Shown: piece after piece, positions 23,165 to 26,600 of the stretch
Layout of the letters: the number at the start of each line of letters is the position of its first letter
How positions within the stretch are numbered: position 1 is the stretch's first letter
Source of the DNA: Sandaracinaceae bacterium
GTDB lineage: Bacteria; Myxococcota_A; Polyangia; Polyangiales; Sandaracinaceae
DNA length: 64,000 nt
Reading direction: 5' to 3'
Assembly: GCA_040218145.1 (NCBI GenBank)
Contig: JAVJQK010000015.1
Span: 1 to 64,000 of the forward strand
The notes under the pieces: generated by a model
The model's database searches: none
Told to the model about the DNA's origin: nothing
What the model saw: only the letters and a program-made list of their open reading frames with translations
Program-made: the position numbers and the translations under genes

Positions 23165-23208
23165 GCCAGGCGAGCGCTGCGCGAGGACGACCCGTTTCGT
23201 TCACCGCG

Positions 23209-23541
23209 CGAGAATGACGACTGAACAGGATCGTCCCCCTCGCCCGCGCTGCCCGACAACCACGCGAGAATGACGAACGAATAGGATCGTCCCCGTCGCC
23301 CGCGCTGCCCGACAGGTTTCGTTCACCACGCGAGAATGACGAACGAATAGGATCGTCCCCGTCGCCCGCGCTGCCCGGTCCCGAGAATGACGAACGAATA
23401 GGATCGTCCCCGTCGCCCGCGCTGCCCGACAACCACGCGAGAATGACGAATGAATAGGATCGTCCCCGTCGCCCGCGCCGCCCGACAACCACGCGAGAAT
23501 GACGAATGAATAGGATCGTCCCCGCCGCCCGCGCTGCCCGA
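23209..23541. repeat. 56-bp tandem repeat array, six copies
   Basis: Six copies of a unit beginning GAGAATGACGAACGAATAGG and ending in CCCGCGCTGCCCG start at 23210, 23266, 23332, 23383, 23439 and 23495. Spacing is 56 bp except for one of 66 and one of 51, where short indels occur between cores. Copy 1 is the most diverged. The core GGGGACGATCCT (minus strand) is in every copy except that copy 1 has one extra G. It lies in the gap between two converging genes and abuts simple-sequence tract 2. Confidence 0.92.
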
Positions 23542-23542
23542 C

Positions 23543-23690
23543 ACGGATGCGGATGCGGTGGCGGAAGCGGTCGCGGGTGCGGAGGCGGAAGCGGTGGCGG
23601 TGGCGGTGGCGGAAGCGGACGCGGGTGCGGAGGCGGAAGCGGAGACGGTCGCGGATGCGGACACGGACGCGGTGGCGAACGCCGACGAAG
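23543..23690. repeat. simple-sequence tract 2, GCGGAN / GCGGTN hexamers
   Basis: About 150 bp of hexamers such as GCGGAT, GCGGTG and GCGGAA follow the 56-bp array. The plus strand is purine-rich. Like tracts 1 and 3 it lies between two converging genes. The remainder of the gap (23691-23775) shows nothing recognisable. Confidence 0.88.
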
Positions 23691-23775: not shown

Positions 23776-24948
23776 CTATCGCTCGCAGGCCTCGACCAGC
23801 GCACCCACCGCGGCGTCCAGCTCCAGCGCGGGCTCTCCCTCCAGCCCCCGCACCGCGACTCTCCGCGCGCGCTGCTCGCGCTCGCCGACGACGGCGACGA
23901 AGGGCACCGCCAGGGCGTGCGCGTCCCGGACTCGCCGCGACAGGCTCTCCGCCCGCGGATCGAGCCTCGCCCTGAGGCCCCGCGCCGTCAGCTGCGCGTG
24001 CACTTCTCTCGCGTACGGCAGCGAGGCGTCCGAGACCGGGAGCACCACCGCTTGCTCGGGCGCGAGCCACGGCGGCAGGCGCCCCTCGTGGTGCTCGAGC
24101 AGGACGCCGAGGAAGCGCTCCAGGCTGCCGAGCATCGCCCGGTGCAGCATGGCGGGGACCCGCCGCGCCCCGTCTTCGTCGGCGTACCAGACGCCGAAGC
24201 GCGCCGGGAGCACGAGGTCGAGCTGGATCGTGCCGCACTGCCACGCGCGACCGAGGCGGTCCTCGAGCGCGAGCTCGATCTTCGGTCCGTAGAACGCTCC
24301 CTCTCCCGGGTGCACGACGTGCTCACGCTCGCCGAGGGCGGCGCGCAGGGCGGCCTCGGCGCGATCCCACGCCTCGTCAGAGCCCGCGCGCTCCGCGGGG
24401 CGCGTCGAGAAGGCGAGCTGCACGCGGTCGAAGCCCACGCTGCGGTAGAACGCGGCGAGCGAGTCGAGGAACCGCGCGACCTCCGCCGCGACGTCGCGCT
24501 CCGGCAGCATGATGTGGCCGTCGTCCTGCGTGAACTGGCGCAGCCGGAACAGGCCGTGGAGCGAGCCGCTCGGCTCGTTCCTGTGGACGAGCCCCAGCTC
24601 CGCGTAGCGCAGGGGCAGGTCTCGCCACGAGAGGCTGCGCCGCGCGGCCAGCGCCAGGTGGCCCGGGCAGCTCACCGGCTTGAGCGCGTCCTCGCCCGAG
24701 ACGAAGAGGCCGTCCCGGAAGTGCGCCCAGTGGCCGCTCCGCTCCCAGACCTCCCGACGCATGAGCTGCGGCGTGCGCACCTCCTCGAAGCCCTCCTCCC
24801 GGAGCCGCTGCCGCACCGCCGCCTCGAGCGCGCGGTAGGCGGCCCAGCCGCGCGGGTGCCAGTAGGCCATGCCCGGCGCCTCGGGCGCGAAGTGGAAGAG
24901 GTCGAGGCGCTCGCCGAGCGCGCGATGATCGGATTCGTCGAAGGACAT
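23776..24948 (-). CDS. thrS: short threonyl-tRNA synthetase (no TGS or editing domain)
   Basis: The 390-residue protein holds the class II catalytic core and anticodon-binding domain of threonyl-tRNA synthetase. Motif 2 is seen in HRNEPSGSLHGLFRLRQF, and motif 3 region in VPAMLHRAMLGSLERF. The three zinc ligands are Cys in KPVSCPGH, His in DDGHIM and His in MLHRA. Full-length bacterial enzymes are about 640 residues; the N-terminal TGS and editing (SAD) domains are absent, so mischarged Ser-tRNA(Thr) would need another editor. The ATG at 24948 follows AAGGAG. A threonine-rich leader peptide and hairpins lie upstream. Confidence 0.9.
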   Translation of the reverse strand: MSFDESDHRALGERLDLFHFAPEAPGMAYWHPRGWAAYRALEAAVRQRLREEGFEEVRTPQLMRREVWERSGHWAHFRDGLFVSGEDALKPVSCPGHLALAARRSLSWRDLPLRYAELGLVHRNEPSGSLHGLFRLRQFTQDDGHIMLPERDVAAEVARFLDSLAAFYRSVGFDRVQLAFSTRPAERAGSDEAWDRAEAALRAALGEREHVVHPGEGAFYGPKIELALEDRLGRAWQCGTIQLDLVLPARFGVWYADEDGARRVPAMLHRAMLGSLERFLGVLLEHHEGRLPPWLAPEQAVVLPVSDASLPYAREVHAQLTARGLRARLDPRAESLSRRVRDAHALAVPFVAVVGEREQRARRVAVRGLEGEPALELDAAVGALVEACER

Positions 24949-24995
24949 GTCGGTCTCCTTGGAAGCCGGACGCCCGGCGGAGACCGCGATCACGC

Positions 24996-25024
24996 GAGCC
25001 CCGTCCGGGGCTCCGGCGGGGCTC
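24996..25024 (-). promoter_or_regulatory. bistable hairpin, candidate attenuator terminator of thrS
   Basis: On the minus strand two copies of GAGCCCC (25024-25018 and 25013-25007) compete for one GGGGCTC (25002-24996). The proximal pairing gives a 7-bp stem with loop GGAC. The first copy follows GACCAC, which can pair with TGGTC inside the leader coding region, so ribosome position could select the structure. There is no U-run after the stem, which weakens a pure rho-independent terminator reading. Confidence 0.5.
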
Positions 25025-25045
25025 GTGGTCAGTGGGATGAGACGC

Positions 25046-25120
25046 TCAGCGCGCGCGCACGACCAGGCCTCCGCAGGAGCGGAGAGCGGTGGTCGTGGTG
25101 GTGACGCGAGAGACGATCAC
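25046..25120 (-). CDS. threonine-rich leader peptide of thrS
   Basis: A 24-residue frame starting GTG at 25120 reads MIVSRVTTTTTALRSC and ends with a TGA at 25046. Five consecutive threonine codons (ACC ACC ACG ACC ACC) are exactly what a ribosome-stalling leader for threonine would need. CACGACCA within the Thr codons is the reverse complement of TGGTCGTG later in the same leader, so a stalled ribosome would free the second segment. It lies 98 nt before the short thrS. Confidence 0.65.
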   Translation of the reverse strand: MIVSRVTTTTTALRSCGGLVVRAR

Positions 25121-25126
25121 GCCCTG

Positions 25127-25155
25127 AACGTGAGCCGCGTGGCGCAGGGCGTCAA
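25127..25155 (-). promoter_or_regulatory. promoter of the thrS leader
   Basis: On the minus strand TTGACG (25155-25150) and CACGTT (25132-25127) are 17 bp apart. The leader GTG follows 6 nt after the -10, so the leader peptide is probably translated from a leaderless end. The -35 overlaps the 3' end of the upstream gene. Confidence 0.6.
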
Positions 25156-26600
25156 GGCGCGATCTCGTACGCGCCGAGGGTCGGAGGCTCCGCGTAGCAA
25201 GCGCCGCTGCGGTCCCCCGCGAGCGTCTCCGCGCGACCCGCGCCCTGCGCCGGGCTCCCGGGCATCAGGCGGTAGTCGCCGCCGGCGCGATCGATCATCA
25301 GCGGATCCATCTGGATGATCGCCCCCGTCTCCGGCGGGATGCCATCCGAGAAGGTGGGGCCGGACCAGGAGGCGTCTTCGTCGAGCGCGAACCACAGGTT
25401 GTTGGCGAACGTGAAGGTCTCCGGAGACGTGCCCCCGCCGACGTTGACCCAGGTCCGGAGGTCGGCCGTGTTCAGCACGATGATGTTGTTCGCGAACACT
25501 CCGTCCCGCGACGGCACGAAGCGCGCGTCGGTCGACTCCTGAAGGATGCGCGCGATCCAGGTCTGCGGCTCGACGATCGTGTTGTGGACGAACGAACACG
25601 CGTCGCAGCCGACGTAGGCGATGGACGCGCCGCTCATCCCGCCCACGCGGACGAAGACGTTGGACTGCACGCGGATGCGCGCCGCCTCGTGCGGGGCGTC
25701 GTCGGGGCGGAAGAAGGCGAGGCCGGTCGAGCCGCCCGCGTTCACCGCGCGGCCGGGGATGTCCTCGAAGAGGTTGCCGTGGATGAGCGTGTCGGCGCTG
25801 CCGCCCTTGGCCTGCACGCCGTTCTGCACGACGTCGTGCACGTGGTTGCCGGTGATGACGCCGCGGTGGCAGCCGACCATGTCCACCGCTTCACCGCGGT
25901 CACAGCCGCTGATCTCGTTGCCGATGAGCCAGAAGTCGTCGACGCCGCTCATCTTGATGCAATCGTTGTTGCCGCCGCTGCCCGCGTCGCGCACGGTCAG
26001 GTTGCGCAGGACGAGGTGGTGCGCGGGGGTGCTGTAGTCGCCGCCGTCGTCGAGGTTCATGCCGTGCACCATGGCGTCGGCGATGGTGAAGCCCTCGATG
26101 ACGACCCACGCCGCGTCCTGCATCGCCCAGCCCGTTCCGCTCGACGCGTCGATGGTCACGTCGCCGTCCGCGACGAACGCGATCGGGGCGCCCTCCTCGC
26201 CCTGGACGGTGCCGAGGTTCTGCGCGGGGTAGGTGCCCGCGGCGACGCGCACCTCGGTGCCCGGCGTGGCCATGCGCGCGGCCGCGCCGATGGTCTGGAG
26301 CGGCGCGCCCGCCGAGCCGTCGTTGCCGTCGTCGCCGTCGGTCGCGACGTGGAGCGTGCGGGCGTAGGTCACGCCGACGTCGAACGCGGGGGGCGGCGCG
26401 CAGGCCGGCGTGGGCATGCCCCCGTCGGGGCTCGACGCGTCCGGGTCGTCGCCTCCGTCGGGGGGCGGGTCGCTCGCGTCGACGCGGCCGCCGTCGATCG
26501 GCGCCGCGCCGTCCGGGCGTGGGCCCGCGTCCGCTTGCTCGCCGCCATCGCATCCCCACGCCGCCATCGCGGCGAGCGCCACCCAGGTCAGTCTGCCCAT
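25152..26600 (-). CDS. right-handed beta-helix lipoprotein
   Basis: The 482-residue protein has a lipoprotein signal (ALAAMAAWGC) and a long Asp/Pro/Gly linker (about 20-70). A parallel beta-helix domain follows, with an opening DUF1565-like motif (HVATDGDDGNDGSAGAPLQT). Rungs such as LVLRNLTVRDAGSGG, FWLIGNEISGCDRG and GVITGNHVHDVVQNG are visible. Such proteins often bind or cleave polysaccharides, but no catalytic set can be named. TACCAT ends 6 nt before the ATG. Confidence 0.82.
   Translation of the reverse strand: MGRLTWVALAAMAAWGCDGGEQADAGPRPDGAAPIDGGRVDASDPPPDGGDDPDASSPDGGMPTPACAPPPAFDVGVTYARTLHVATDGDDGNDGSAGAPLQTIGAAARMATPGTEVRVAAGTYPAQNLGTVQGEEGAPIAFVADGDVTIDASSGTGWAMQDAAWVVIEGFTIADAMVHGMNLDDGGDYSTPAHHLVLRNLTVRDAGSGGNNDCIKMSGVDDFWLIGNEISGCDRGEAVDMVGCHRGVITGNHVHDVVQNGVQAKGGSADTLIHGNLFEDIPGRAVNAGGSTGLAFFRPDDAPHEAARIRVQSNVFVRVGGMSGASIAYVGCDACSFVHNTIVEPQTWIARILQESTDARFVPSRDGVFANNIIVLNTADLRTWVNVGGGTSPETFTFANNLWFALDEDASWSGPTFSDGIPPETGAIIQMDPLMIDRAGGDYRLMPGSPAQGAGRAETLAGDRSGACYAEPPTLGAYEIAP

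Follow-up and report, generated by a model that had tools for sequence, protein, structure and literature searches.

Upstream of a gene for a short threonyl-tRNA synthetase (ThrRS), on the minus strand of the window (the whole stretch of 64,000 nucleotides that was analysed), a small reading frame with a row of threonine codons is followed by a chain of potential hairpins. The question which this locus raises is whether the region acts as an attenuator that reads the supply of charged threonine tRNA and, if so, at which level it would control the gene, here termed thrS2. Ribosome stalling at rows of regulated codons controls thrABC of enteric bacteria and pheST of E. coli, and E. coli thrS is subject to translational feedback by ThrRS. 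The following features were assigned at the locus, the evidence being given in parentheses:

25127–25155, minus strand: sigma-70-like promoter with the −35 box TTGACG (25155–25150), a 17-nt spacer and the −10 box CACGTT (25132–25127) (sequence).
25046–25120, minus strand: leader peptide MIVSRVTTTTTALRSCGGLVVRAR, followed by a stop codon, apparently leaderless (sequence; upstream frame with a Thr run kept at all homologous loci).
25088–25102, minus strand: five consecutive Thr codons, ACC ACC ACG ACC ACC, the proposed sensor and the start of pairing segment 1 (sequence).
25055–25100, minus strand: protector hairpin 1:2, CACGACC..CTCCGC with GCGGAG..GGTCGTG (swap test, window fold, covariation).
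25012–25079, minus strand: antiterminator 2:3, GCGGAGGCCTGGTCGTG.. with GACCACGAGCCCCGCCGGA, overlapping the 5' arm of the terminator (swap test, covariation, prefix folds).
24996–25024, minus strand: terminator-like hairpin 3:4, GAGCCCCGCCGGAGCCCCGGACGGGGCTC, with a weak U tail in the window (swap test, compensatory changes, U enrichment in the family).
24952–24985, minus strand: hairpin 5:6 sequestering the Shine-Dalgarno (SD) sequence, GGTCTCC (24985–24979) with GGAGACC (24958–24952), inner stem GCCGG/CCGGC (sequence, swap test).
23776–24948, minus strand: thrS2, short threonyl-tRNA synthetase of 390 aa (Pfam PF00587 and PF03129, NCBIfam TIGR00418, above cut-off).

The promoter and the 24-codon frame, which starts with GTG at 25120, 6 nt behind the −10 box, and contains the five Thr codons, were found where an earlier note on this DNA had placed them. 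The complementarities claimed there are present as well, namely CACGACC with GGTCGTG within the leader and the TGGTCGTG segment with GACCACGAG past its end. Across all frames of the 64-kb window a run of at least five Thr codons occurs a single time, in this leader. The −10 box is weak in the window and better in most relatives.

Homologues were gathered by searches of the family, the order and the phylum, and 33 short-thrS loci from 22 genera and 8 families of Myxococcota were compared. Besides the window bacterium, 33 further genomes of Myxococcota carry the leader and hairpin chain before the short thrS. At 33 of 33 loci the ThrRS gene was preceded by a short frame, predicted to be translated, in which 4 to 9 Thr codons follow one another, and another genome from the species of the window has this frame as well; at locus L041 the thrS2 frame is extended, so that the leader lies further upstream. 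None of the upstream regions of 22 full-length thrS genes, on the other hand, contained a Thr run of four codons. Evidently, the distribution of the Thr run is more than chance, and neither the Thr codons nor the hairpins, whose loss in homologues the earlier note would have taken as evidence against an attenuator, were missing at any of the 33 loci. The consensus leader peptide is roughly M-xxxx-TTTTTT-R-x-GG-xx-VV-x-x-R-stop. Among the relatives Thr is kept while the third codon base varies (ACC 80, ACG 62, ACT 19, ACA 1), and the start codon, the promoter spacing and the stop of the leader are conserved.

In the promoter search, which covered 0 to 30 nt before the leader start codon, the best match ended 5 to 10 nt before this codon in 26 of 28 leaders, and the promoter score exceeded the 95th percentile of the background in 19 of 28. 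Since the match stays so close despite the wide range allowed, the untranslated region appears to be conserved at no more than a few nucleotides. With transcription predicted to start on the start codon or at most a few nucleotides away, and without an SD sequence, the frame is apparently leaderless, a design that had seemed unusual in the single locus and is in fact maintained in the family.

For the analysis of RNA pairing the leader was cut into six segments: the Thr run (1), the leader end GGCGGG..GGTCGTG (2), the spacer with the 5' arm of the terminator (3), the 3' arm of the terminator (4), the anti-SD (5) and the SD (6). For each segment, the mean duplex energy with the native partner was set against the value for partners swapped between species, using one representative from each of 23 lineages. 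All adjacent pairs favoured their own partner, with z values of −4.2 (1:2), −5.9 (2:3), −7.8 (3:4), −4.0 (4:5) and −6.0 (5:6). Among seven further combinations, six ranged between −0.5 and +1.6; the remaining one, 3:5, reached −2.9, a signal which probably stems from extensions of some terminator stems within segment 5. Dinucleotide shuffles within loci agreed with the swap tests and were weaker for 4:5. In a MAFFT alignment of 21 leaders, 86% of the cells of the protector and terminator structure were paired and 15 were doubly changed, versus 6.0 in shuffles, and sliding the partner destroyed this pairing signal. The antiterminator 2:3 was paired in 72.6% of the cells, and its covariation score was reached by none of 500 shuffles. 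The protector, antiterminator and terminator helices are consequently supported by swap tests and compensatory changes alike. RNAalifold recovered from the MAFFT alignment the terminator hairpin only, the antiterminator being an alternative fold.

The conserved form of the element differs in several respects from the first reading. As proposed there, both GAGCCCC copies (25024–25018 and 25011–25005) can pair with GGGGCTC (25002–24996); their competition, however, is a detail of the window. It was rejected as the core of the switch, since in the relatives only one 5' arm is found, where the window has the first copy. The conserved hairpin uses this first copy and reads GAGCCCCG-CCGG-loop-CCGG-A-CGGGGCTC (25024–24996). 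Judged from the comparison, the conserved antiterminator is a long helix of the GGCGGG..GGTCGTG segment with the 5' arm of the terminator. Furthermore, a conserved hairpin over the thrS SD, absent from the first reading, was found, and the gene itself is an auxiliary second ThrRS gene.

In model folds the 3:4 hairpin dropped on average from 0.90 to 0.60 (p about 8e-7) once the ribosome was placed at the Thr codons. In prefixes that end at the terminator loop, a stalled ribosome gave more pairing of the terminator 5' arm than a finished one did, at 31 of 31 loci. Computation thus yields mutually exclusive antiterminator and terminator hairpins, of which a stalled ribosome would select the former. 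For the window, for which the earlier note had suggested this type of folding, the outcome was divided: the equilibrium fold of the full leader kept the 3:4 hairpin at 1.03 in all states, with no opening on stalling and with a slight opening of the SD (0.20 to 0.28), whereas the prefix fold switched (0.83 stalled versus 0.46 finished for the terminator 5' arm). Co-transcriptional timing would therefore be needed in the window. Uracil is enriched directly after the 3:4 stem across the family (2.96 versus 1.37 per 10 nt), and 8 of 26 leaders carry four or more U within these 10 nt (31% versus 6%). Several members show clear U tails; in the window and many relatives the tail is poor, so that intrinsic termination is not assured. 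Since U is enriched over the family yet poor in many members, 3:4 may be read either as a weak-tailed terminator or as a switch element.

In most members the SD of thrS2 is buried in a hairpin directly upstream of the gene, with both arms differing in sequence: GGUCUCC/GGAGACC in the window, GUCGUUCUCC/GGAGAACGAC in L028, CUCCGUC/GACGGAG in the g83 genomes (L029–L035), CCGUUUCG/CGAAACGG in L037 and GAUUCCUC/GAGGAAUC in L009. The anti-SD arm of several genomes could in addition pair with the 3' arm of the terminator, over 11 bp in L030 (one of six g83 genomes); in the window this 4:5 pairing is weak. A test restricted to the anti-SD arm gave z −2.9, with controls between −0.5 and −1.5, and the 4:5 relay is accordingly regarded as suggestive. 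Equilibrium folding was rejected as a decisive test of SD release, the effect of stalling being small (0.16 to 0.20). Because the anti-SD arm can also pair with the terminator 3' arm, a single stall may control both termination and translation, for which the pairing data provide moderate support.

The leader is specific for thrS2. We scanned 360 genomes from the phylum and 179 from the order with a covariance model of the leader; every match with E < 1e-7 lay before a short thrS, one of these genes being a broken copy. At this locus (L071, G311:C1 about 7273451, minus strand) an intact-looking Thr leader precedes a thrS2 copy whose catalytic core was lost by internal deletion, apparently a decaying gene with a still recognisable regulator. 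Weak matches were plentiful at E 1e-4 to 0.1; those inspected as candidates for other genes under the same leader (L118–L122) do not precede Thr genes and resemble chance hits. The sensitivity of the model is incomplete, since some true leaders (e.g. in G090, G093 and G363) scored E 1e-5 to 1e-2 or were missed. In the window no Rfam family reached its gathering score, and at a relaxed threshold the leader returned malK-III alone (E 3.2), a chance match; neither window nor leader gave an Rfam match to a T-box. The leader represents a family absent from Rfam.

The product of thrS2 comprises a class II catalytic core and an anticodon-binding domain, and Pfam and NCBIfam assign it neither a TGS nor an editing domain. 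Compared with solved structures, it agrees with the catalytic core of the E. coli type, and it possesses the zinc ligands C334, H385 and H511 (E. coli numbering), as expected for a threonyl-tRNA synthetase. A full-length ThrRS is encoded in the same genome (at C76), and such an enzyme accompanies the short one in 33 of 33 genomes tested. In a maximum-likelihood tree the 33 short proteins form one side of a branch with a support of 100/100. The full-length rows nearest to them are, within limited sampling, from Pseudomonadota, which suggests that the short ThrRS arose by acquisition and domain loss. At position 332 (E. coli numbering) all 33 short enzymes have Val versus Met in 46 of 46 full-length ones, and at position 384 Gly replaces Ala in 31 of 33. 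Both positions adjoin zinc ligands of the amino-acid pocket, and the exchanges may alter selectivity or inhibitor sensitivity. The housekeeping ThrRS of the window genome (G000:C76:314802-316640, L124) is itself divergent, with about 44% or less identity to the enzymes of most relatives and 66–71% to those of G456, G337 and G174, a pattern which suggests replacement via transfer.

Taken together, we consider it highly likely that the region is a ribosome-mediated, apparently leaderless attenuator of the auxiliary ThrRS gene with the following switch logic. Transcription would begin at the leader start codon or at most a few nucleotides from it, and the leader would be translated at once by a ribosome. 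With ample charged Thr-tRNA this ribosome would reach the stop codon and cover segment 2; hairpin 3:4 could then form, the anti-SD arm (5) would bury the SD (6), and thrS2 would be off. When charged Thr-tRNA is scarce, because the cell starves for threonine or the housekeeping ThrRS fails or is inhibited, the ribosome would stall in the Thr run and cover segment 1, so that segment 2 could pair with 3, block hairpin 3:4 and allow expression of thrS2. In a less certain step, the freed arm 4 would pair with the anti-SD arm 5 and open the SD. Very probably, therefore, the leader serves to turn thrS2 on only when charged threonine tRNA runs short. Of the earlier proposal that Thr-tRNA shortage stalls the ribosome and lets thrS be transcribed, the stalling part is backed by the comparison; owing to the extra conserved SD hairpin, control may act on translation, either alone or together with transcription. 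Rather more tentatively, and with somewhat less than an even chance in our estimate, the parts may form a six-segment relay, in which one stall in the leaderless poly-Thr leader would set five successive, mutually exclusive helices (1:2, 2:3, 3:4, 4:5 and 5:6) and thereby decide termination and SD access for a ThrRS that lacks an editing domain and has exchanges in its pocket (Met332 to Val, Ala384 to Gly); this enzyme would be an inducible spare for failure or inhibition of the housekeeping one.

The division between termination and SD occlusion is where the closest rival enters. In a purely translational attenuator 3:4 would be a switch element and not a terminator, and the burial of the SD by 5:6 would be the regulated step, relieved by 4:5 after stalling. 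The poor U tails of many members including the window would agree with such a device, as would the conserved SD hairpin (z −6.0) and the 4:5 complementarity, which is detectable for the whole segment (z −4.0) as well as for the restricted arm (z −2.9) and extends to the 11-bp helix of L030. The enrichment of U after the 3:4 stem and the clear tails of several members speak against it, however, and 4:5 is weak in the window; we regard this alternative as unlikely, albeit one to be taken seriously.

Far less probable is a leader whose Thr run serves RNA pairing in an untranslated frame and which senses another signal, e.g. ThrRS as in the E. coli thrS feedback. The pairing of segments 1 and 2 (z −4.2) would agree with it, and the SD-proximal hairpin resembles the E. 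coli thrS operator in position; against it stand Thr being kept over 4 to 9 codons with a variable third base and the conserved start codon, promoter spacing and stop. That a low-complexity ACC/ACG run and GC-rich hairpins, as in any GC-rich genome, merely coincide here is a notion to which the many hairpins produced by high GC and the abundance of weak covariance-model matches lend some colour; in view of the 33 loci against none of 22 controls, the covariation and the unique Thr run of at least five codons in 64 kb, it appears already refuted by the comparison and retains a negligible probability. Since the Thr codons, the mutually exclusive hairpins and the leaderless start are kept at 33 of 33 loci with compensatory changes, stalling in response to Thr-tRNA is by far the best reading.

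Known systems share parts of this design. The enteric thrABC and pheST leaders likewise combine rows of regulated codons with 1:2, 2:3 and 3:4 hairpins; they have SD sequences and strong U-tract terminators, and the thrS2 leader differs by its SD-sequestering hairpin. Vecchione and Sello reportedly described in 2010 that the auxiliary, indolmycin-resistant trpRS1 of Streptomyces is under ribosome-mediated attenuation. This case shares the second synthetase gene, the leader with cognate codons and the presumed induction upon failure or inhibition of the main enzyme; it concerns Trp and Actinobacteria, the likeness is one of description and not of sequence, and drug resistance is a feature of trpRS1. 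Bacillus thrZ is a second, inducible ThrRS copy. Its leader also responds to Thr-tRNA and consists of tandem T-boxes (PMC2494555), which bind uncharged tRNA directly without a leader peptide, whereas the ribosome is the proposed sensor for thrS2. His leader peptides before hisS paralogues in bacilli again place cognate codons before a duplicated synthetase gene, but for His and in Firmicutes, and leaderlessness is not mentioned for them in the excerpts of PMC2965389 consulted. Excerpts of PMC8079986 describe for Streptomyces lividans a candidate leaderless thrL leader before thrS, also without a clear U tract after the hairpin; its peptide MKRVRPFLETTPGFVPAR has two Thr codons and is reported there for one species, with no comparative structure given in these excerpts. 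In mycobacteria, poly-Cys short ORFs that are leaderless (Canestrari 2020, cited in PMC9031893) likewise control a downstream gene by consecutive cognate codons, though for cysteine, operonic genes and another phylum. In Anabaena a duplicated ThrRS is stress-induced under Zur and low zinc.

In the part of the literature covered by our search, neither a Thr leader nor a leader-peptide attenuator of any kind was found described for Myxococcota. Because of this and of the differences from the known relatives, we regard the element as a new family, a ribosome-mediated, leaderless Thr attenuator controlling an auxiliary ThrRS; attenuation, leaderless leaders and leaders of synthetase paralogues as such are already known. 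It adds to the phylum a conserved RNA regulator outside Rfam, which combines a conserved, apparently leaderless start with a putative second control layer at the SD. A monophyletic, editing-less second ThrRS that is on only when charged Thr-tRNA falls would be predicted to serve as an emergency or inhibitor-proof enzyme.

Inspection of the gene order in the window and four other genomes revealed no conserved neighbours or operon partners of thrS2. In the window the leader −35 box (25150–25155) overlaps the stop codon of the upstream gene for a right-handed beta-helix protein (25152–26600, minus strand). Directly downstream of thrS2, positions 23203–23543 hold six head-to-tail copies of a 56-bp unit (ACCACGCGAGAATGACGAACGAATAGGATCGTCCCC...), which are adjoined by a GC-rich 6/12/24-bp repeat at 23544–23677.
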